From a virus: 21,623 nucleotides of DNA. The stretch lies in IMG/VR virus record IMGVR_UViG_3300035659_000113, positions 1 through 21,623 of that record. One strand, given 5' to 3'. The position numbers were made by a program, and so were the translations under genes. The notes under the pieces are model-generated. The model was not told the DNA's origin. It did not search any database and saw nothing but the letters and a program-made list of their open reading frames with translations. This document shows positions 321 through 14,499 of the stretch, piece by piece (position 1 is the stretch's first letter; every line of letters begins with the position of its first letter).

Positions 321-554
321 TTAAGGGATTTCTAAATGATTTACCCAATTTCCACTTTCCTTCCTGTCTATTTTAAGACTGTCCGCCGTCCACGTTATTT
401 GCCAACTGCCATTCATATTCGGGTCACCAAGAGCTAAAACTCCTCCCGTCAAAGGTATTGAGCCATCGGCGGCAATATAGTTCGATTCAATAGCGGCAAT
501 GTCCTTGTTCTGCTTGTATAAAAGCAAACGCTCTTTACGCTTATTAAGGTTTAT
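321..554 (-). CDS. Small fibre-tip-like structural protein with probable AUA start
   Basis: From a TTG at 527 this ORF encodes 68 residues ending at TAA (323-321). The better start is an ATA at 554-552, giving 77 residues. It is preceded by AGAGGTGATTT, exactly the 11 bases that precede the ATG of the tail tube A gene at 11620. The TTG at 527 has only a weak GAG upstream. The sequence has a short basic N-terminus, then NYIAADGSIPLTGG, ALGDPNMNGSWQIT and ESGNWVNHLEIP. This resembles the repeated 'DG-PLTG' units and closing strands found in phage tail fibres, so a small trimeric tip or accessory fibre is plausible. It begins 20 bases after the stop of the giant ejection protein. Function is inferred from sequence style only. 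Confidence 0.7.
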   Translation of the reverse strand: MNLNKRKERLLLYKQNKDIAAIESNYIAADGSIPLTGGVLALGDPNMNGSWQITWTADSLKIDRKESGNWVNHLEIP

Positions 555-3500: not shown

Positions 3501-5806
3501 TCTTTGCGGGCAACTGAAATCTTTTCATCAAGTCCCGTTTTAATATCCTGTAAAACTGCATTTCTTTGCTGCTCATATTCTGGACTCCTAAATTCAGCCA
3601 AAATCTTTTTTTGGTTTGCTGTTAAATTTGTTTCAGTTATCCCAATACTTTTATCTGCCAATGCAATTTCAATAACTGAACCAGGATGAACATCGCCTCT
3701 TATATTAGCAGATTGTATAGAGTATTGTAAGAGTTGATTTGGAGTTGGTTTTAGCTTTTCATTCTGAATAAATGCCTCTGGCGGAAGTTGATTTTTGACA
3801 TCAGCCAATACTTTCTTGGGAACAATATAGTAATCCTCTCCACTTCGGGACTGAACCTTCCAGATTTCATCTGTTTTAGCTCGAAGCGCATCCATTGTTG
3901 AACGAGGCAAACGAACCGGCACTCGGTCAAATTCACTCGACCAAATAAAAGTTTTACGCAGTTTGTTACTGCCCACACTTGCAGGAAACGCTCGATTTCT
4001 TTCTGCTCTTAATCCCTTCTGCCCCCAATCGTAAAGTTTTTTGCTTTCCTGCCATTCTGTTGGAACTGAAGTATAAATTACTTTAGTCGGCGGAACTTCC
4101 GCCTTCGGCAAGACCTCTGGCTTGCCCCATTCCTGTTCAACAGACCATAATGCCATATCGAGATTTTCTTTTGCAGATTTTTCAGAATCTAAAGATATAT
4201 TAACGCCACCGGCTTTTTCTGCGTGGTCGCTCAACCTAATTGTAAACGTGCCTATATCCTCACTTTTATTTTCTACCGTAAGATAATACGAACTACCAGA
4301 ACCCCTTTCCCAATAAGTTCTTGCCACATCAGGTCTTTTTCGGATTTCTGAACTTATTACATTTATCGTGTTTTCAACGTGTTGACCATATAAACCAAGA
4401 GATTGAGATGGCGTTGGCTCTTTTATCTCCGCCAAACGGTCTGCGTAAGTATAATCAAAATACTTGTCAACAGTTTTGGGGCCAGTTACGGTCGGCTCGG
4501 CGGTTATTTTTGCCCCTGCGGCCTCCACAGAGGGCTTCTCGGCGATTGTGGGGGCTTCGCCAGTAGTTATAGCAGTAGTTTCTTTTGGAAGATTATTTGA
4601 CCAGTATGTCTTTAATGCCTCCTCTTTTTGTGCGGCCTTGATAAGCTCCTTCTTTAGCGCACGGGCGGCGTTCCTGACCCCTGCCTGCACATTTGCCGGA
4701 AGTTCCGTAAAACGAATATCCTGCCCAATAGATTCTCCATACATTTTAACCGTTTGGTCAACAATTTCCGGCTCGATATCCTTACTCAAAAAGTCTATCG
4801 TTTTCGGATATTTTCTTGCCAAATATGCCGCCGCCCTTTGAAACGCCCCTTGAACTTCCGGTATCTTTGTAAGTGGAGCAAGAAATCCCATTCCCGCCGT
4901 CAGACCAACACCCCAACCCATTCCTTTGGCAGTATCAAAAGCGATTTGTTTCGGCGGATTGCCTTTAAGAGCAGAATCCAAACCACTCCACGAACCGACA
5001 AATGCTGTATTTTCAGGTGCGGCTTGCAGAAAGTTCACTAATCCCTGCCGTAAAAGATTTCTTATACCCGCACCGGACAGCGTTTTTAGTTCCATTCCTT
5101 CAGCGCTTAACGTTTTGGAAATAAACGGTTGTGATATTTTCTGACCTGCACTTGTGAGAACATTAGACAATCCACTTACGGCAAAAAACATTTTCAAAAC
5201 TGCATATTTGGCAATCTGTTCGCCTGCCCATCCTGCGACTTCGGGTGATTTTTGATACCACTTGAGAGTATCGTGATATTCGAAAGCCAAAATCTTTTGA
5301 ACATCCTCTTTTGTAGTCAGTCGCCAATCACCTGCTATTTTACCACCAACTCGACCGAGAAAATCCGAAATAGGCAAGGTCGCAAAATTAAACTTCTCTA
5401 TCGGCGAAGCGTTTTCCCAATTTGGTGGTTTGGCGGGGTATGTAAAACCAAGCATAGATTCGAGAAAAGTCTTTTTTTCTTTTCCAGTTGGCGCACCAAT
5501 ATATGAAGGTTTATAACCTTCTTTCTCCAGTTGTGGTATAATAAAATTTGCAATGTCTGTCGGGTCAACAACAGCATTGGTCATTGCGGTTAATGGTTCG
5601 TAAATCCCTGCCACATCTTCCGGCGGCAAACTATATCGAACAGAAGTATCGAATGTTTTTCCAGCAAACTGATGGACTTCTTCGAGGTCGATTCTCGCCT
5701 TGCCCGAACCGGCAGGCCATTGGATGGGTTGCTCTATTAAACCATCGAGTCTGTTAGTTTGAGGTTCAATAGTTTCTGGCTCTAATAATGTCGCAAGTCT
5801 GTTCAT
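575..5806 (-). CDS. Giant internal virion (ejection) protein, T7 gp16-like position, polyvalent-type
   Basis: This 1743-residue protein ends the ejection-core block, the place of gp16 in T7. The start ATG overlaps the previous stop (ATGA). No Shine-Dalgarno is visible, so translation is probably coupled. Hydrophobic stretches lie near residues 195-215 (AKYAVLKMFFAVSG), 290-310 (GMGWGVGLTAGMGFL) and 1475-1510 (WVAALLAVGGTSVFLK), consistent with insertion into the host envelope during DNA ejection. The middle is charged and helical. Near 1047-1078 a Rho_N/SAP-like helix pair (AELQNLAKESGLDIENKKK) suggests nucleic-acid contact. The C-terminal motif GLPALVGIDLSGSV (about 1522-1535) is one I recall from large polyvalent-protein-associated domains of phages. 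I could not identify the lysozyme-like transglycosylase motif found at the N-terminus of T7 gp16. Role is inferred mainly from position, size and hydrophobic pattern. Confidence 0.85.
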   Translation of the reverse strand: MNRLATLLEPETIEPQTNRLDGLIEQPIQWPAGSGKARIDLEEVHQFAGKTFDTSVRYSLPPEDVAGIYEPLTAMTNAVVDPTDIANFIIPQLEKEGYKPSYIGAPTGKEKKTFLESMLGFTYPAKPPNWENASPIEKFNFATLPISDFLGRVGGKIAGDWRLTTKEDVQKILAFEYHDTLKWYQKSPEVAGWAGEQIAKYAVLKMFFAVSGLSNVLTSAGQKISQPFISKTLSAEGMELKTLSGAGIRNLLRQGLVNFLQAAPENTAFVGSWSGLDSALKGNPPKQIAFDTAKGMGWGVGLTAGMGFLAPLTKIPEVQGAFQRAAAYLARKYPKTIDFLSKDIEPEIVDQTVKMYGESIGQDIRFTELPANVQAGVRNAARALKKELIKAAQKEEALKTYWSNNLPKETTAITTGEAPTIAEKPSVEAAGAKITAEPTVTGPKTVDKYFDYTYADRLAEIKEPTPSQSLGLYGQHVENTINVISSEIRKRPDVARTYWERGSGSSYYLTVENKSEDIGTFTIRLSDHAEKAGGVNISLDSEKSAKENLDMALWSVEQEWGKPEVLPKAEVPPTKVIYTSVPTEWQESKKLYDWGQKGLRAERNRAFPASVGSNKLRKTFIWSSEFDRVPVRLPRSTMDALRAKTDEIWKVQSRSGEDYYIVPKKVLADVKNQLPPEAFIQNEKLKPTPNQLLQYSIQSANIRGDVHPGSVIEIALADKSIGITETNLTANQKKILAEFRSPEYEQQRNAVLQDIKTGLDEKISVARKETDERLAIQQEQQAGEIGDFLDGLIEPKRPKDLLGREMLQGGAAGTQTEFLEKEKYRLAEPDIEGQKILIDLESYGIKVAKPKTIEKAKALGLTSPETDLTGVPEKLDIKPSEEIKSKTSQYNDSREAGFVAIPLINTTSAIEAENPNISIQEAKKDIGPLQKYILTLTNQAYNSKDPEIISAAEEMADTGMRMWNETQSSLTVDQHFYKQLPKEYRQEKGVKFFELMDKHYSPEEITAARDIPEEIKPILTHFKEQDEVMRQEIIGQKRAMWKALYKRQKKAELQNLAKESGLDIENKKKSQMAEDLAAIKIPDDWGREWSHIQHIFLGQYNLRFRDTEGNVHFIGRAETRKEAVQRLADFKDARKAEGFGDADDIQLIADREFSIPYDVLRVSRKQAFVLEQHLAEAVAAERQEISDAIRGIIGKRESKQKWWGALMHRKGAEGYLTDFWKVWAIQTSQFNRWKFLTQMNRTVTPLIEKIKAKGLPGWAERLENSRDILWSKKRTVTAKTLDGLLNEIPVVRNYHKPWVLERWTGMFKTINYWRHLQTGRFYVVNSLQPLQTLWPIVGEKGLYRGFRLYYSKEGQRILREHKVAGLSGKVHELGMKRARKFERFLPAGASEIRNQGVAFLALYDRGIKMGMNDSEAARYGRLRGQLFTQFTYTPSDIPGVMSSPIGGLAFQYKRFPIKNLELVSRLAREGNWGGVARWVAALLAVGGTSVFLKTIEVGGMGYLTYKLYKKIKDEWGEDAANVIHHGLPALVGIDLSGSVNPIDIPQGRNIYEKTGNLIFGPTGQTAIRLYGDLTEEKVAKEIGLIPRGLKSLVDSSPAAKQFVNLVDALQKDTTNYDSKQRATYKLETWDLWKKAFGFRPETESIQRMQFEATMDVKQLYDERLDEVTLARINNNYKKAADLIIEWNARWPEVPITISDTDRRMKERKKAREKTVTERGYEQLPKKVKNLFSKSSGQPPKEKL

Positions 5807-7245
5807 TTTTGAAGAAGTTTAATAATATCATTTACATCGCCGCCTTTTTGGATATAGACCCACGCAGTATTTTTTTCTTCATCAGTCATATCCTTCCAGT
5901 AAGGGTCTAAAGCAATGTCCGGCGCGGATTGCAACCTCAATTCATTCGGTCTTGCCTGTGTTTGTTCGATAGTCTTTTGTCCGGCCATCAATTCCGCAGA
6001 CCTTTGATACATTTCCTTCGCTGTCGGAGTCTTTTTATTCGCTATCTCATTATCAATCCAGCCAAGCAAGTCCAGATTGAGTCGCAAAGACCGTTCCCTG
6101 TTGGCGGTCGTTTCCCACCATCCGGCTATTTGCTGCCTGTTGGCAGCCATTGTTGATTTCAAATCAGAAACGATATGTTTTGGATAAGGATGTTCCAACT
6201 TCCCTATTGCCCATTTGAAGTCGTTGTCCGTAATTCCACCAGTCGTATATCTGGTCGTCAAGATGTTGTCATATGCCTGTTGTTTAGATAGTTGGCCTTG
6301 ACTAAACTGCATAACAGTATTTGAGATTTCATCATAACCATCGGGCGTGGTCTTGGGCGGCGCAACAGCGAAAGAACCCTGTATGTATCCCTGCCATTTT
6401 TCCTTGTCCTCCTTATCAAGTGTGCTTAATTCGACCTCATCGGAAGTAAGTGTTCCGGTCATAAGTTTTTTTGCAGAGTCATTATAAAATTTAATGGTAT
6501 TCGCATATCTATTGTCCTGTTCCTGTTTGACCCTGCCCGCCCAGTAATTGTCGAGTCGATTACCGAGTATGGCCTTGTCCTCATCGGAAAGACCGGAACT
6601 GTCTATGACCTCATATCCGGCTTCTTTATCGCCCGCCCTGATTGCCAACGAAAAAACAGTCTGGTTATCTATGTCGTTTTTGGCCTTCCTTAAAATCAGT
6701 TCCGCCTTATCCTTCGATACGACGCCGGTATGAATAGCCAGGCCAACAGCCTTTTCTACTCTCGGGTAATCATTGTCCGCAATCCCACTTGCCACATTAT
6801 TGTCAAGGGCATCCCCCATCGCATCAATTTTCATCTTGTTATCGAGATTATTAAAGTGAGTATCGAATTGCGGTTCATAAGAATTGAGTTTGTTCTGCAT
6901 CAGATTGCGGACATTCGGTCTTTTAATGGCGGAGATTATCGCAACTCTATCGACGGCGGCTTTTGTGTGAAGCTGCTTTCTTGCCTCTGGGTCTTGTGTG
7001 GTTTGTAAAGCGGCAAATTCAGTGTTCCAGTTTTCGTGTATCTGTCGTTCGGCATTAGAAGTATCCGTAGCATCCTGCGCCTCAGAAATTCGATTTAAGA
7101 CATCCATTCCGAATTTGGCCATTGCTCCGCCTAATCCTGCAACGGCCTCGGCAGGAGCAGCGGCAATGTTTGCCATATTGGAGGGGACTGTTTCCCTTGT
7201 TGCAGGCGGCATTATTTTCGATTGGTAAGTTCCAATTATCGGCAC
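5803..7245 (-). CDS. Internal virion core protein, T7 gp15-like position
   Basis: A 480-residue protein starting at GTG (7245-7243). The start is set by a strong AGGAG that overlaps the stop codon of the upstream gene (TAGGAGATTAACGTG). The N-terminus is Ala/Pro-rich (PPATRETVPSNMANIAAAP). The rest is charged and strongly helical with few hydrophobic stretches, as expected for the gp15-type middle component of the ejection core. It lies between the gp14-like and the giant gp16-like proteins, the order seen in T7-like virions. The stop codon overlaps the next start as ATGA. No catalytic motif is visible. The family call rests on synteny and composition, not on a recognised domain. Confidence 0.75.
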   Translation of the reverse strand: MPIIGTYQSKIMPPATRETVPSNMANIAAAPAEAVAGLGGAMAKFGMDVLNRISEAQDATDTSNAERQIHENWNTEFAALQTTQDPEARKQLHTKAAVDRVAIISAIKRPNVRNLMQNKLNSYEPQFDTHFNNLDNKMKIDAMGDALDNNVASGIADNDYPRVEKAVGLAIHTGVVSKDKAELILRKAKNDIDNQTVFSLAIRAGDKEAGYEVIDSSGLSDEDKAILGNRLDNYWAGRVKQEQDNRYANTIKFYNDSAKKLMTGTLTSDEVELSTLDKEDKEKWQGYIQGSFAVAPPKTTPDGYDEISNTVMQFSQGQLSKQQAYDNILTTRYTTGGITDNDFKWAIGKLEHPYPKHIVSDLKSTMAANRQQIAGWWETTANRERSLRLNLDLLGWIDNEIANKKTPTAKEMYQRSAELMAGQKTIEQTQARPNELRLQSAPDIALDPYWKDMTDEEKNTAWVYIQKGGDVNDIIKLLQK

Positions 7246-7254
7246 GTTAATCTC

Positions 7255-7803
7255 CTATGGTCTCGGTGAAATATTAAGATAAGTTCCTGACGAAGTTCCA
7301 GGCAAAGTCGAGGCAGGACTGCCCGTTACGCCTTTGCCAAACATACCACTTGAATAACCATAGAGTCCCAACCTTGCTGTGCCAGTCAAAAGTGTTGTCA
7401 TCGCATTTAACGTCTCCGCCTTTTTTGCGTATTTCGCCTGACTTTTTAATAGCGCGGACTGTGCCATATATTTCTGCGATTCCACCTGACCTGTATATCT
7501 TGTCACAAGTGCGTCCCGTTCAATTTTGCTTGCGCTTTCGGCAAGGGCTTCCAACGGAGAACCTTCCAATCGAACACTCGAAGCGCCGACAGTCGCACGC
7601 TGCTCCGCCTTGAACTTCTCACCCTGCCTGCGGAACGCAGCGACTTCGTAAGAAGTCTTTTTCTTGGTTATCTCCGCCTCACGTGCAGCGAGGGCGGCAT
7701 CGTATTTCAAAAATGCCTCTTTGGCCTCGCCCGCCTGATATTGTCCCATAGCGGACATCCCGATACCGGCGGAAAATAATCCAATTAAAGCACCTTCAGC
7801 CAT
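7255..7803 (-). CDS. Internal virion core protein, T7 gp14-like
   Basis: A 182-residue protein with an N-terminal Gly/Ala-rich hydrophobic segment (ALIGLFSAGIGMSAMGQ), followed by a long Ala/Lys/Glu-rich helix. That helix contains RRQGEKFKAEQRATVGASS, then LEGSPLEALAESA. The 'AA-R-QGE...GASGV...GSPL' pattern is typical of podovirus gp14-like virion core proteins. A second weakly hydrophobic Gly-rich stretch (LLTGTARLGLYGYSSG) lies near the C-terminus. The ATG at 7803 overlaps the stop of the GNAT-like gene by 8 bases and follows AAAGGA at good spacing. The stop is TAG (7257-7255), embedded in the ribosome binding site of the next gene. It is expected to be ejected early and help form a channel in the outer membrane, by analogy with T7. 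Confidence 0.85.
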   Translation of the reverse strand: MAEGALIGLFSAGIGMSAMGQYQAGEAKEAFLKYDAALAAREAEITKKKTSYEVAAFRRQGEKFKAEQRATVGASSVRLEGSPLEALAESASKIERDALVTRYTGQVESQKYMAQSALLKSQAKYAKKAETLNAMTTLLTGTARLGLYGYSSGMFGKGVTGSPASTLPGTSSGTYLNISPRP

Positions 7804-8483: not shown

Positions 8484-10883
8484 TCAAATCCCTTCAATAA
8501 TTGCCTTGACTATTATCGAGCGAATAACCAAAGGCAATGGAGCATCTTGCACAAGAGTTATAGATGTTTCTTTCTGCCAGTCTGTTTGGTAAAACGGAAC
8601 TTCTCTCTCCATTCTCGGATAAATTCCGGAAAATAATTCTCTTTCAGTCAAGTCAAGTTCGGTCAAATGACTGGCATCAGAACCGAATTTGACTCCTTTT
8701 CCTGTTGCGTATAGATCTAAATTCGTTCCGGCAATCTTGATTTTCTTGCCTTTGGTCGAACCGTTCTGAAACGAAAACTGCAAATCAAGAGTAGTTAATG
8801 TTGATATATAAGACAGACCGACAACAACTTTGCTTGCCGCCGTATCAAGTTCTATCTTACCGTTCCCATCAACTTCCTGACTATCGACAGCCACACCATC
8901 GGCCAAAATATCAACAGTCTCTCCTATCAGATGGTCAAGTCCCGAAATCATTTTCGTTGGCGTCCCATAAATTTTCGACAGAGAGCAATCGAGATACTGA
9001 CAGTCTTCAATATTAGCATCAAGTTTTATCGGATTAAGACGTTCAATGTAACGTTTGTTGCCGCCAACGTCCCTTTTTACGAGCAGCCAAACCTCATCCT
9101 GACCAGTAACGGCACTTGGTATGACTGCAACAGACTCTACGAATCCATTGGTCATCGGGTGCGAGGCGAAAGCCACAACATCGTGAACTTTGCTATAAAC
9201 CATACTCACAACAACACCATCACTCCTGACCATCCAGAGAATAGGTATCGGTTGTTGCTGAAAACACATTCCGATTATTAAGGGTTTAGTAATGTGTTCG
9301 GCGAGAATTGAGATGTCCTCGACAACCATATAATTATAAACGTCAGTCGAATAGACAATTTGACAGACTTTTTGACCCTGTCTCTCAATGAAAAGTATAG
9401 TATTGCCGCTTAACTTGCCCGTCTCAAACTTGTCCGGTTGGATTGCACCCGAACCACCGGGCCCGCTGAAAGTCTGGATTCCACCCTCGACATTTACCGG
9501 CTGAATTGAACTGGATTGGTATGATGTTCCTATGAGGATACTCTGTGAGGAAGGAGTCAGCCAGACAATAGGATTAGACTTGGTAGTTGACAGGTAGAAA
9601 TAAAGAGCATCATCTGCATCAGGTCCTTCAAAGAAATTCTCAAACTCAAAATTCTGGCTTGCCCAAATTCTTGGCGCACGATGCGACTTTGACGCCACGA
9701 AAAGTCGTTGCTGAAAGAAAGTCAAAGTTGTCGGGTATCCCTGTTCAAGAGACCACGCACCTTCAGCCCATTTTTTTGTGGCTTTAGTTGACTGCAATAC
9801 AGGAGTTGAACTTTTGGTAAAATGCTTCCTGCCAAACCAGCCCCATTGTGTTTTTTCCTCGGTAGTTGTAGTTGTTTGAACGCCCTGAAGAGCCGTTAGA
9901 ACCGTTGCTTTAACATTTTTGGGATCTACATAACCAGTTATTCGGACAATGCCATACCATTCGTAGGTAAGAACATTCAGATTATAAGTGCATCCACTGC
10001 CGCCGGAAGTCATATTGAGACGATAAAGTGCTTCATCGACCGTCTCCTCGAACTCCTCCAGCATATTGTCATCCTTCTCAACATCTAAAGAAAATACCTC
10101 GTCCCATATTACACCCTTATCGTAACTTTTCTCAACCGACAAACTGCCTGTCCAACTTCCGTGAGTGGTAATTCTTATCGATGTATTCTCCTGAATAGTA
10201 ATAGAACCGGACTTGCCCACTCCGGAAAATTTCCCTTTTACGCTTGCCGTAGGACGGGTCTGAACTATTTTCCACAAAGACCCCACGTGTTTTGCCGTAA
10301 AGACGTCCGAAGAAGCCGTCAAGTTTATAGTGCCTGTCGTTCCAGACGGCGTAATCGTTGTGTCCGTTTTGTTATCCGGCAGAAACGGCCCATCCTCAAT
10401 CGGGACATCGGCAATTTCCCAGTTATCGTGGTCGTGGCGAATCAATTTCTGCATAGGATGATTCGGGTGGCATAGATACATCAGGTCTTCTACCTGGTCA
10501 AAATGAATATCAATTAACTCATTTTCAGCAAAGACAGTCGATATTTCATAAGGAATACCATCTTTGAGTATCAGTCCGGTCTCACCAGTATCAGGATTTG
10601 TCCGCCAGAACCGCAGGTAGTTCGTCCCCGCCTCGATGATATAAGCGTCTGTAGTCGAAAAGATAAAAGGTATCAATCGGGCAAGTTTATCACTATTCTT
10701 GGCATTACCTATAAACTGCGTGCCTGGCCGCCGGAATGTAGGACCTTGCAGAAACAACAACATATTCTGCATTGTTTTGCAGGCATAACCATATTTAGGA
10801 AGATCTATCCGCCCGAACATTATCGGCGAAATCTCTCCGGTGTTGAAACAGAGTTCTTCAGGATTTAGTAATGTTGCTGGCAT
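8484..10883 (-). CDS. Tail tubular protein B-like nozzle protein
   Basis: A 799-residue, beta-rich protein. The N-terminus (LNPEELCFNTGEISPIMFGR, then MQNMLLFLQGPTFRRPGTQFIG) is the conserved opening of podovirus nozzle and tail tubular protein B families. These have the pattern 'f..GEvSP.l.gR.Dl.kY..gl....N.i....G...rRpGt.fv'. Later features fit too: the FQQRLFVASKSHRAPRIWASQ block and the GPGGSGAIQPDKFETG region. The protein should form the lower tube of the short tail through which DNA leaves. The length is close to that of T7 gp12 (794 residues). The ATG overlaps the stop of the tube A gene (TAATG) and has GAGG 8 bases upstream. Confidence 0.93.
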   Translation of the reverse strand: MPATLLNPEELCFNTGEISPIMFGRIDLPKYGYACKTMQNMLLFLQGPTFRRPGTQFIGNAKNSDKLARLIPFIFSTTDAYIIEAGTNYLRFWRTNPDTGETGLILKDGIPYEISTVFAENELIDIHFDQVEDLMYLCHPNHPMQKLIRHDHDNWEIADVPIEDGPFLPDNKTDTTITPSGTTGTINLTASSDVFTAKHVGSLWKIVQTRPTASVKGKFSGVGKSGSITIQENTSIRITTHGSWTGSLSVEKSYDKGVIWDEVFSLDVEKDDNMLEEFEETVDEALYRLNMTSGGSGCTYNLNVLTYEWYGIVRITGYVDPKNVKATVLTALQGVQTTTTTEEKTQWGWFGRKHFTKSSTPVLQSTKATKKWAEGAWSLEQGYPTTLTFFQQRLFVASKSHRAPRIWASQNFEFENFFEGPDADDALYFYLSTTKSNPIVWLTPSSQSILIGTSYQSSSIQPVNVEGGIQTFSGPGGSGAIQPDKFETGKLSGNTILFIERQGQKVCQIVYSTDVYNYMVVEDISILAEHITKPLIIGMCFQQQPIPILWMVRSDGVVVSMVYSKVHDVVAFASHPMTNGFVESVAVIPSAVTGQDEVWLLVKRDVGGNKRYIERLNPIKLDANIEDCQYLDCSLSKIYGTPTKMISGLDHLIGETVDILADGVAVDSQEVDGNGKIELDTAASKVVVGLSYISTLTTLDLQFSFQNGSTKGKKIKIAGTNLDLYATGKGVKFGSDASHLTELDLTERELFSGIYPRMEREVPFYQTDWQKETSITLVQDAPLPLVIRSIIVKAIIEGI

Positions 10884-11620
10884 TAACTTAACCTCGAAAT
10901 CAATCTCGACCGCATTAAAGTTTTGCCGGACAAAATCTTTGTAGATGATTCTTGAGCGTCTAAAGACCTTGCTTGCGGGATAAGAACAGTTTGCAAGTAT
11001 TGTATAATTTCTGCCGGTAATTTTTCAGATTGCTTTATAGCCATTGATAGTTCAACGGCCAACATATAAACAAGCACCTGAACAAAAAGAGGGTCGTATT
11101 CAGACACAATGACGTTGCGATAGACGTAGCGAATATCACAGTCGGTCTCGTTGAAAAGAATCTGTCTATCTTCTATCCGCCAGGGATATGACTCTGAATC
11201 AAGTGGCTCATCTGTGTCCTTATCGACTGGAGTAATCACACGCAGGCAATCGTCTGGAAGGTCATAGGCATAAGCGTAACCACTTGAAGGTCTGGCGGTT
11301 ACCAAAGTCCATTTTCCGGTGGCGAGGTCGGTGGCAAAAGTTCCCGATGTATGGGCGATAGCACACTTATAAAGTAAAGCACTTGTCCAGACATACTGGT
11401 CGGTCATATAAACAGTTGCCGTCAGCCACGCAGAGGACAGCTTGATTCTTGTTGAGGCAAAATTCCACGAAAAAGACCGCAAGACCTCGTCCCTGACCTG
11501 GGGGTAATATCGACGACATTTAACAGCGTTTCCAGTAGAGTCAGTCTCATAGTGCCCTATTAAACTTGTGCCTACTTTTTCAAGAGACATATTACAGACA
11601 TCAGTTATGCTCAAGGCCAT
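10883..11620 (-). CDS. Tail tubular protein A-like head-tail adaptor
   Basis: A 245-residue protein with the hallmark N-terminus of podovirus tail tubular protein A (T7 gp11): ITDVCNMSLEKVGTSLI, then CRRYYPQVRDEVLRSFSWNF. The family pattern is 'N.aL..lG...I.s......a...c...Y...r...L....W.fA'. The C-terminal half keeps the usual YRNVIVSEYDPLFVQVLVYMLA helix. It forms the ring that joins the portal to the nozzle. The start is well supported by AGAGGTGATTT directly before the ATG. The stop overlaps the next start (TAATG), tying its synthesis to that of the nozzle. Confidence 0.92.
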   Translation of the reverse strand: MALSITDVCNMSLEKVGTSLIGHYETDSTGNAVKCRRYYPQVRDEVLRSFSWNFASTRIKLSSAWLTATVYMTDQYVWTSALLYKCAIAHTSGTFATDLATGKWTLVTARPSSGYAYAYDLPDDCLRVITPVDKDTDEPLDSESYPWRIEDRQILFNETDCDIRYVYRNVIVSEYDPLFVQVLVYMLAVELSMAIKQSEKLPAEIIQYLQTVLIPQARSLDAQESSTKILSGKTLMRSRLISRLS

Positions 11621-11635
11621 AAATCACCTCTAAAT

Positions 11636-12838
11636 CTATTGGGTCAAGCCGTAATAAAGACCGTCCTCATCGTAGTCGAAAATTACGTAAGTTTTGCCAT
11701 CGTTCTTATACGAGCCGCCGGCATTGGCATAGACAGTAGGTTCAGTATCCTGAACGCCGACAGGCCACAGAACCGAATAACTGCCCGTATTGGTAATAAT
11801 CAACTCCAGATTGCCCGTTTTTAATGGCGGAATAAAAGATAAAACTATATTGTCTATCAGAGTAATTGCCTGTCTTTTTGTCTTTGACCAGTCGATAACA
11901 ATCGGGAGAAATGTGCTTAATCGACCATAGGCATCTGACCGACCTTCCGCAGAACCGACAAGGTCGCCAATACGCAGAGACCCGCTTGCTCCAGATTGTC
12001 CGGCAGCAGAACCACTCAAACCTTGAAATCGGGTCAAATTTCCATCTGCCGTAGAAACTCCGCCACTTGTGCCTGAAAGTCGTATCTCCTGCCCGCCGGT
12101 ATCTATATTCAGAGTTCCAATAGCCCCTGACTGACCTGCCGCAGAACCGGCGAGGATTAAATCGGCTGTAAGTTTTCCCGAAATCTCTGATTGTCCCGCC
12201 GCAGAACCGGCAAGGTCAATAGTTGAAACAACATACTCCTTAAAAGCAACAACACCTATAAGCCAGGCACTATAAGAAATTGTCCAGCTTGATGCCCAAA
12301 CACCTGCCGTTACTTGTAATTTATATTGGTTACTATCTGAGAAACCGTCATTATCTGTCCTATTTAGATTCGTTCCACTTTGTGCGGTAGGGGCAGAGTC
12401 ATAACTATCATAAAGATTAGCGACAATAACATCCCCATTTGCCGTAGTCGTTACGCTTTTCGATGGATTGGCACTAACACCACTTCCGCTACTTTTAACA
12501 TCCAAAACACTCGTATAACCGCTTTGTGCTTTGTAACTTGATGCCTGAATGCACAAGTTTATTGAGGCGGAATTAGGCACGCTAATTTGGTAAGCAGCAC
12601 CAGTCGATGGATTCAATAAATACCATAATTCTATTGTTGTCCCACCTGAAATGCCTGCCGCTATTGTCAGAGCAACACCATTATAAGTTGGCGTTCCGCC
12701 CGTGCGCTTCTGTGAACTTTCGCTGCCTACTACTATTCCCAAACAGAGAACGGTAGCACCACTGCCGCAGGTATAGTTCTGCGTAAGTGGATTACTCGAA
12801 CCCGTAAAGCGCAGGTTTGTATCAAAAGTATGAGAAAT
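11636..12838 (-). CDS. Repeat-bearing fibre/spike-like structural protein, probable AUU start
   Basis: The only conventional start is a TTG at 12742 (368 residues), which has no ribosome binding site and cuts into the first beta domain. The frame is open further upstream. An ATT at 12838-12836 follows AAGGAG with an 8-base spacing, the same as the ATG of the gene before it (13361), and gives 400 residues. The added N-terminus (ISHTFDTNLRFTGSSNP, later TCGSGATVLCLG) reads as a normal continuation of the beta-sandwich containing TPTYNGVAL. Five imperfect repeats follow (L-x-GSAAGQS-x-x-x-G-x-L). The C-terminal domain (VIDWSKTKRQAITL... LELIITNTGSYSVLWP... YYGLTQ) resembles those closing many phage fibre proteins. 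A receptor-binding or decoration role is inferred. The codon between ATT and TTG most able to start otherwise is CTG at 12814. Confidence 0.8.
   Translation of the reverse strand: MSHTFDTNLRFTGSSNPLTQNYTCGSGATVLCLGIVVGSESSQKRTGGTPTYNGVALTIAAGISGGTTIELWYLLNPSTGAAYQISVPNSASINLCIQASSYKAQSGYTSVLDVKSSGSGVSANPSKSVTTTANGDVIVANLYDSYDSAPTAQSGTNLNRTDNDGFSDSNQYKLQVTAGVWASSWTISYSAWLIGVVAFKEYVVSTIDLAGSAAGQSEISGKLTADLILAGSAAGQSGAIGTLNIDTGGQEIRLSGTSGGVSTADGNLTRFQGLSGSAAGQSGASGSLRIGDLVGSAEGRSDAYGRLSTFLPIVIDWSKTKRQAITLIDNIVLSFIPPLKTGNLELIITNTGSYSVLWPVGVQDTEPTVYANAGGSYKNDGKTYVIFDYDEDGLYYGLTQ
11925..12225 (-). repeat. Five degenerate repeats inside the fibre-like gene
   Basis: The encoded units are LAGSAAGQSEISGKL, LAGSAAGQSGAIGTL, LSGTSGGVSTADGNL, LSGSAAGQSGASGSL and LVGSAEGRSDAYGRL, spaced by short variable linkers. 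The DNA copies share a core on the plus strand of the type GCCGCAGAACCGGC but differ at many wobble positions. This points to protein-level selection or old duplication rather than a recent tandem expansion. Such 'GSAAGQS' strands are common in fibre and adhesin shafts. Confidence 0.8.
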
Positions 12839-12839
12839 T

Positions 12840-12935
12840 TTATTTTCTCCTTTTAGACCAAGGGATTTTCCCCTTGCGAGCCAGGCGCATTTTCTGCTTA
12901 CTACTTTCAGAATGGCGAAAACCTGTTTCAGGCAA
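12840..12935 (-). CDS. NUMOD3-like basic micropeptide (31 residues)
   Basis: A TTG at 12935-12933 follows AGGAG with an 8-base spacing, the same spacing as the neighbouring genes, and opens a 31-codon frame ending at TAA (12842-12840). The protein contains GFRHSESSKQKMRLARKGK, then PWSKRRK. This resembles the NUMOD3 DNA-contact motif (G-x-x-HSEETK-x-K(I/M)-x-x-A-x-KG(K/R)-x-PW) usually found at the C-terminus of GIY-YIG and HNH homing endonucleases. Here no nuclease is attached. The stop is one base before the AUU start of the fibre-like gene, and that gene's AAGGAG lies inside this coding sequence, so the two are probably coupled. Function is unknown. A DNA- or RNA-binding peptide or a relic is possible. 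Confidence 0.6.
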   Translation of the reverse strand: MPETGFRHSESSKQKMRLARKGKIPWSKRRK

Positions 12936-12968
12936 AAGATTATCTCCTGTGCAAGGGCGATTCACCCT

Positions 12969-13361
12969 TTAATCGAGCGTGAGCGTTAGGTCGCCTATTG
13001 CGAATCTGGCGGTATCGCCCGTTATAATCACCTTCGAGACCGACAGTGCGCCCCAGACAAGCATATTTCCGCCGGATGAAGCGTCAAAAAGGGCGAAATG
13101 AGTTATCGTTCCCCAGTCGGCGGTGGCAGTCGGAAAAGTTATAACGGCAGCGTTGCTGTTTGCCCCGTTTGCCGCAGCCGCCCAACTGCTTCCGCTCGTT
13201 GCCACTCTTGCATAAGAACCGCCGGATACCGGAGTCCCACCACCCGCATCGCTTGGCGCAGCGGTGTAAAGCGCTACGTAAGCAGTAGGCATCGTAAAAG
13301 ATGTTTTGCCGACAATATGGTCAAGAATTTTAAGCTCTGCATAATCACTTATACTACCCAT
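12969..13361 (-). CDS. Fibre-like small structural protein (130 residues)
   Basis: The protein has the layout of a widespread phage family often annotated as tail-fibre-like. It has an N-terminal helix (SDYAELKILDHIVGKTSF), then PTAYVALYTAAPSDAGGGTPV and SGGSYARVATSG. An Ala/Asn/Ser-rich strand region, TFPTATADWGTITHFALFD and a closing GNMLVWGALSVSKVI follow. I recognise the pattern 'YvaLfta.psdaggGtEvsGgsYaR...fp.a.adWGtithf.ifda..gG.llyyg.l'. It probably decorates the capsid or tail. The start ATG is supported by AAGGAG 8 bases upstream. A strong hairpin lies between it and the previous gene. Confidence 0.85.
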   Translation of the reverse strand: MGSISDYAELKILDHIVGKTSFTMPTAYVALYTAAPSDAGGGTPVSGGSYARVATSGSSWAAAANGANSNAAVITFPTATADWGTITHFALFDASSGGNMLVWGALSVSKVIITGDTARFAIGDLTLTLD

Positions 13362-14477: not shown

Positions 14478-14499
14478 TATTTAAACTCCTTAAAAAAGG

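Follow-up and report, generated by a model that had tools for sequence, protein, structure and literature searches.

Introduction

The minor-tail/fibre-like gene of a podovirus-like phage raises the question whether its translation begins at an ATT codon (12838) that follows a strong Shine-Dalgarno (SD) sequence, or at the first canonical start codon in the same frame, a TTG further downstream (12742). The window, i.e., the complete 21.6-kb virus record that was analysed, carries its main genes on the minus strand, encodes a capsid protein approximately 38-40% identical to those of HTVC010P-type Pelagibacter phages, and contains recognisable gp80-type, portal, terminase, and tail tubular genes. 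The minor-tail/fibre-like gene is located between the gp80-type and the tail tubular gene, and the features of its start region that are discussed first are:

12969..13361, minus strand: gp80-type fibre I protein gene, upstream neighbour (Pfam PF23140; ATG, AAGGAG-8 nt layout)
12847..12852, minus strand: AAGGAG, SD sequence 8 nt before the ATT, within the last codons of a micro-ORF
12836..12838, minus strand: ATT, probable start codon, aligned with ATG/GTG/TTG starts of homologues
12740..12742, minus strand: TTG, first canonical start in frame (residue 33, in beta-strand 3); rejected
11636..12838, minus strand: minor-tail/fibre-like gene from the ATT, 400 aa (translation, homologues, structure model, and minor tail matches)
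10883..11620, minus strand: tail tubular protein A type gene, downstream neighbour (phrog_394)

This paper describes the evidence that translation of this gene probably begins at AUU (12838) after a strong SD sequence, with the UAA of the micro-ORF one base ahead of it.

Results

Reading frame and Shine-Dalgarno sequence

The minus-strand frame stays open between a TGA at 12964-12962 and its stop codon at 11636; from 12961 onward it contains no ATG, GTG, or TTG before the TTG at 12742, which lies 32 codons into the ATT-started gene. The sequence-only reading of this DNA had pointed to AAGGAG standing 8 bases before the ATT, as it does before the ATG at 13361, and this layout was borne out on the minus strand, where the two leaders have their first ten bases (AAGGAGAAAA) in common. 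The AAGGAG-8 nt-ATT arrangement opening a 400-codon frame is real, and its SD sequence (-8.7 kcal/mol, aligned spacing 7) is as strong as those of the window's best genes; 0.96% of the positions on the strand have one at least as strong with a spacing of 4-10. A scan of the coding strand for SD-supported AUN or CTG codons ahead of canonical starts returned three candidates, at 554, at 12838, and at 14480, the last being a trivial case one codon ahead of an ATG, and the same SD-AUN scan returned two on the non-coding strand. The combination of SD and AUN is by itself weak evidence for the ATT start, and the weight comes from homology, because homology independently picks the same codon.

The candidate at 554 is a possible ATA start (321-554, minus strand) with the leader AGAGGTGATTT, the same as that before the ATG at 11620, and the first canonical start in its frame is a TTG at 527. 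It had been proposed as a companion of the ATT that would make two AUN starts in one operon. A search for homologues of this ORF found none, and the proposal stays unproven because SD-AUN candidates are about as frequent on the opposite, non-coding strand.

Homologues and conservation of the start site

An initial scan gave one homologue, L002 (32%), and another, L009, was found by synteny after a gp80 gene; the latter starts ATG GCT CAC ACA CTG, encoding MAHTL versus ISHTF in the window. A scan with the alignment of these two yielded 57 viral and 8 bacterial loci. All 17 aligned viral homologues start at the position of the ATT (GTG in L085, TTG in L084 and L086, ATG in the 14 others), and the codon aligned with it is ATG in L087-L096 and L098. 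The three nearest viral homologues, L084, L085, and L086, are unable to start earlier, because an in-frame TAA stands immediately upstream of the start codon in each of them. Counted by profile, the family has 39 ATG, 5 GTG, and 4 TTG starts, and no AUN start was encountered elsewhere among these 48 canonical ones; two of the four TTG starts, those of the bacterial sequences L142 and L147, whose N-termini are longer, are displaced by 4 codons. The 83 gp80 homologues that served as a control displayed 79 ATG, 3 GTG, and 1 TTG, and none of the 83 had an AUN start.

Conservation starts at residue 2 at full strength, whereas the 90 bases upstream of the ATT are at chance level, with upstream DNA identities to L084-L086 of 30-34%. 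Residues 2-32 are approximately 74% identical to those of L085, L086, and L141, and identity to the four nearest homologues amounts to 68-74% over this stretch versus 49-60% over residues 33-120. Moreover, codon differences from L084, L085, and L086 cluster at third codon positions (25 of 48, 21 of 42, and 30 of 50, respectively). The view that the ATT occupies the start-codon position was thereby upheld, since the aligned homologues begin exactly there and none near TTG 12742, and from these alignments it is well supported as the start position of a phage minor-tail gene.

The sequence closest to the tail domain (60%) is L141, on a Thermodesulfovibrionia MAG contig, in which a signal-peptide-like stretch precedes AAHTFDTNLRF, so the domain can have other sequence in front of it. 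Its context raises the possibility that the domain may be common to secreted bacterial proteins. Differences in organisation were also seen for the phrog_376 tail protein, which is unsplit in the window (8484-10883) and looks split in L084, where an N-terminal piece of approximately 60 aa (2664-2849) is separated from the remainder (within 4001-7402, fused behind the TTG-started minor-tail domain) by about 1.1 kb containing a gp80-like gene and others; the same N-terminal piece is present in L085 (2680-2859).

Predicted fold of the gene product

The 400-aa product consists of an N-terminal beta-sandwich (residues 1-201), degenerate repeats (..GSAAGQSG..), and a C-terminal domain. AlphaFold2, run on the alignment, predicted a beta-sandwich with high confidence (pLDDT 93.9, pTM 0.90), in which residues 4-13, 18-23, and 30-37 form strands. 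The first two strands and the beginning of the third thus fall within the 32 residues gained by the ATT start, which agrees with the earlier suggestion that these residues complete the sandwich. A Foldseek search against BFVD matched annotated phage minor tail proteins, with TM scores (query) of 0.71-0.78 among the top 15, and a fold search of the PDB gave no convincing relative and no well-matching solved structure. By predicted fold and genome context, the product is probably a phage minor-tail/fibre-type protein.

The NUMOD3 micro-ORF upstream of the gene

The region between the gp80-type gene and the ATT contains two further features:

12944..12949, minus strand: CAGGAG, SD sequence of the micro-ORF, 8 nt before TTG 12935 (-7.4 kcal/mol)
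12840..12935, minus strand: NUMOD3-motif micro-ORF, 31 aa, TTG start, TAA at 12842-12840

The micro-ORF, which could also start at an in-frame GTG at 12965, three bases past the stop codon of gp80 (41 aa), matches Pfam PF07460 (NUMOD3) over residues 5-27 with 25.7 bits (cut-off 20.4). Neither the 31-aa nor the 41-aa form includes a nuclease domain, the NUMOD3 motif being present alone, and comparison of the peptide with phage records gave a single weak match, to a SegD endonuclease. This free-standing motif (12840-12965) between two structural genes is possibly a homing-endonuclease remnant.

The stop of the micro-ORF and the start of the tail gene are arranged as TAA, one base, ATT. Comparable layouts were found in the nearest relatives, as micro-ORFs of 16 aa in L084 and 26 aa in L086 end directly before the TTG starts, and a 168-aa gene ends directly before the GTG start in L085; in all three, upstream ORF and tail gene share one reading frame, and the former ends at the adjacent TAA. 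The upstream peptides of the relatives are unrelated, so the layout recurs and the sequence does not. The micro-ORF of L086 (3506-3586) is basic (MNRKEKIFGSERLSAKRQPFTSFVRL) and is located between a gp80-like gene and the TTG-started minor-tail gene.

A predicted hairpin around the Shine-Dalgarno sequence

12821..12858, minus strand: predicted mRNA hairpin burying the SD sequence (z -2.3; folds as good in 7 of 200 shuffled sequences)

The inner helix of this predicted hairpin pairs 12849-12844 with 12837-12832 (GAGAAA with UUUCUC), the outer helices pair 12854-12850 with 12828-12824 and 12858-12856 with 12823-12821, and the loop (12843-12838) would contain the UAA and the A of the AUU. Among 19 starts of the window, that at the ATT has the lowest predicted accessibility of its SD sequence (0.02). 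The hairpin stands out only modestly, since an equal degree of burial is reached at 4 of 86 GGAG sites and its inner part by itself is unremarkable, and it is not consistently present in relatives.

A buried SD sequence and an upstream stop in the hairpin loop, both as predicted, would fit coupled, low-level initiation. With respect to the stop-restart arrangement that had been proposed for the NUMOD3 peptide, the anatomy was confirmed and the coupling itself is a prediction, which draws on layout and folding because the micro-ORF sequence is not conserved. From the buried SD sequence and the layouts of L084 and L086, we infer that translational coupling of the micro-ORF to the tail gene is favoured.

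Discussion

Alternative explanations

Translation from TTG 12742, the start that gene-finding software would choose, has in its favour that this is the first canonical start codon in frame, and we consider it very improbable. Its SD sequence reaches only -2.8 kcal/mol at a poor distance (spacing 14), no aligned homologue starts nearby, and the residues that would be lost are conserved as protein; a start at residue 33 would also break the modelled fold, because strands 1 and 2 are removed and strand 3 is split. Somewhat more serious, and still improbable, is a consensus error or minority variant that conceals an ordinary ATG at the same place. The window is one metagenomic record (21.6 kb), searches of IMG/VR by capsid protein and by exact DNA found no close relatives and no second copy, and ATG is the commonest start among the homologues. 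However, the homologues begin ATGGCTCAYAC versus ATTTCTCATAC in the window, so that both the G of the ATG and the family-conserved Ala-2 codon have changed (TCT, not GCN); a single-base sequencing error is disfavoured because the two are altered together. Besides, the altered bases are paired in the predicted hairpin, which a one-base error would not yield, and the nearest viral relatives are without ATG here as well (TTG, GTG, TTG).

The change from ATGGC to ATTTC at the junction with upstream sequence unrelated to that of the relatives could also mean that the gene lost its start on upstream replacement and is now silent or nearly so; NUMOD3 motifs are part of homing endonucleases, a decaying remnant of which may have been involved. 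This reading has little probability in our judgement, as the 400 codons are intact and a strong, correctly spaced SD sequence, needless in a silent gene, has been kept. We assign a similarly small chance to a +1 shift in reading frame close to the stop codon of the micro-ORF (AAA UAA A), which would fuse the NUMOD3 peptide to the tail protein and make the ATT an internal Ile codon. The micro-ORF and tail frames do differ by exactly +1, and the SD-like AGGAG just upstream of the stop recalls the RF2-type arrangement, in which such an element precedes the stop at a +1 shift; the domain moreover tolerates an N-terminal extension, e.g., the signal-peptide-like stretch of L141. Yet no shift is conserved, the upstream ORFs of L084, L085, and L086 being in the same frame and ending at TAA, the SD spacing suits initiation at the ATT and equals that of gp80, and no parallel was found for a DNA-binding motif joined to such a tail protein. 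A conserved frameshift or read-through was ruled out, as the frame relations vary among relatives.

Probable initiation at AUU and a possible mechanism

Initiation at AUU 12838 is the reading that we prefer. The codon may have arisen by one local change at the gene start or by replacement of the upstream sequence, perhaps linked to the NUMOD3 insert. The AUU would be decoded by initiator tRNA as fMet, giving a protein that starts M-S-H-T-F-D. Ribosomes translating the micro-ORF might open the hairpin that hides the SD sequence and stop at the UAA in its loop, after which some of them would restart on the adjacent AUU, kept there by AAGGAG; the weak codon and the hidden SD sequence could together keep this tail part scarce relative to gp80. 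The full form of this proposal, a two-part brake in which the two U's of the AUU pair with the SD region, the ribosome on the NUMOD3 leader opens it, and stop-restart sets the fibre number, is a tentative suggestion that is more probably wrong than right.

Gene finders limited to ATG, GTG, and TTG would remove 32 residues from the protein and disrupt its fold. Natural AUU starts are very few, and a phage tail gene would be added to them if the AUU is used; the layout, with a strong hidden SD sequence and a stop one base upstream, suggests how so weak a codon can work. More cases could be found by looking for conserved phage protein starts whose aligned codon is AUN.

Comparison with known systems

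A literature search, with most subscription papers outside its reach, found no AUU/ATT start in phages, structural genes included. AUU starts and coupled translation are already known, and the phage minor-tail gene is a new case. AUU is reported to be very weak in E. coli, its efficiency being approximately 0.3% that of ATG (Hecht 2017, cited in PMC10666635), and such weakness counts against an AUU start here. The E. coli pcnB gene nonetheless has an AUU start (Binns and Masters 2002, as cited in PMC13009471). As far as can be taken from that citation, the AUU keeps the pcnB protein scarce, in likeness to what would apply here, although pcnB is chromosomal. We know of no micro-ORF stop adjoining the pcnB start.

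The infC gene, encoding IF3, starts at AUU in E. coli and Xanthomonas (PMC5559785) and at AUA in S. aureus (PMC13009471). The comparison with infC that had been drawn for this gene is apt for the codon, as an AUN codon accompanied by an SD sequence is the true start in infC and probably so here, and initiation is inefficient, here presumably. It does not extend to regulation, as E. coli infC is autoregulated via IF3, no such loop is expected for a phage tail gene, and nothing here points to autoregulation or IF3 sensing. In S. aureus, cvfC1 (AUU) and ccpN (AUA) have strong SD sequences and reach approximately 10% of AUG expression in a reporter (PMC13009471). They resemble the window gene in combining an AUN start with a strong SD sequence, and differ in that they are retained in relatives and were demonstrated by ribosome profiling, whereas the window gene is known from the sequence of a single record. 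Finally, reinitiation is well documented and requires very short distances (PMC10666635). Termination-reinitiation pairs (PMC6728339, PMC10666635) likewise have stop and start within about one base and the SD sequence inside the upstream ORF, but these are usually ATGA or TGATG overlaps with canonical starts, whereas the window has TAA-A-ATT behind a 31-aa ORF.
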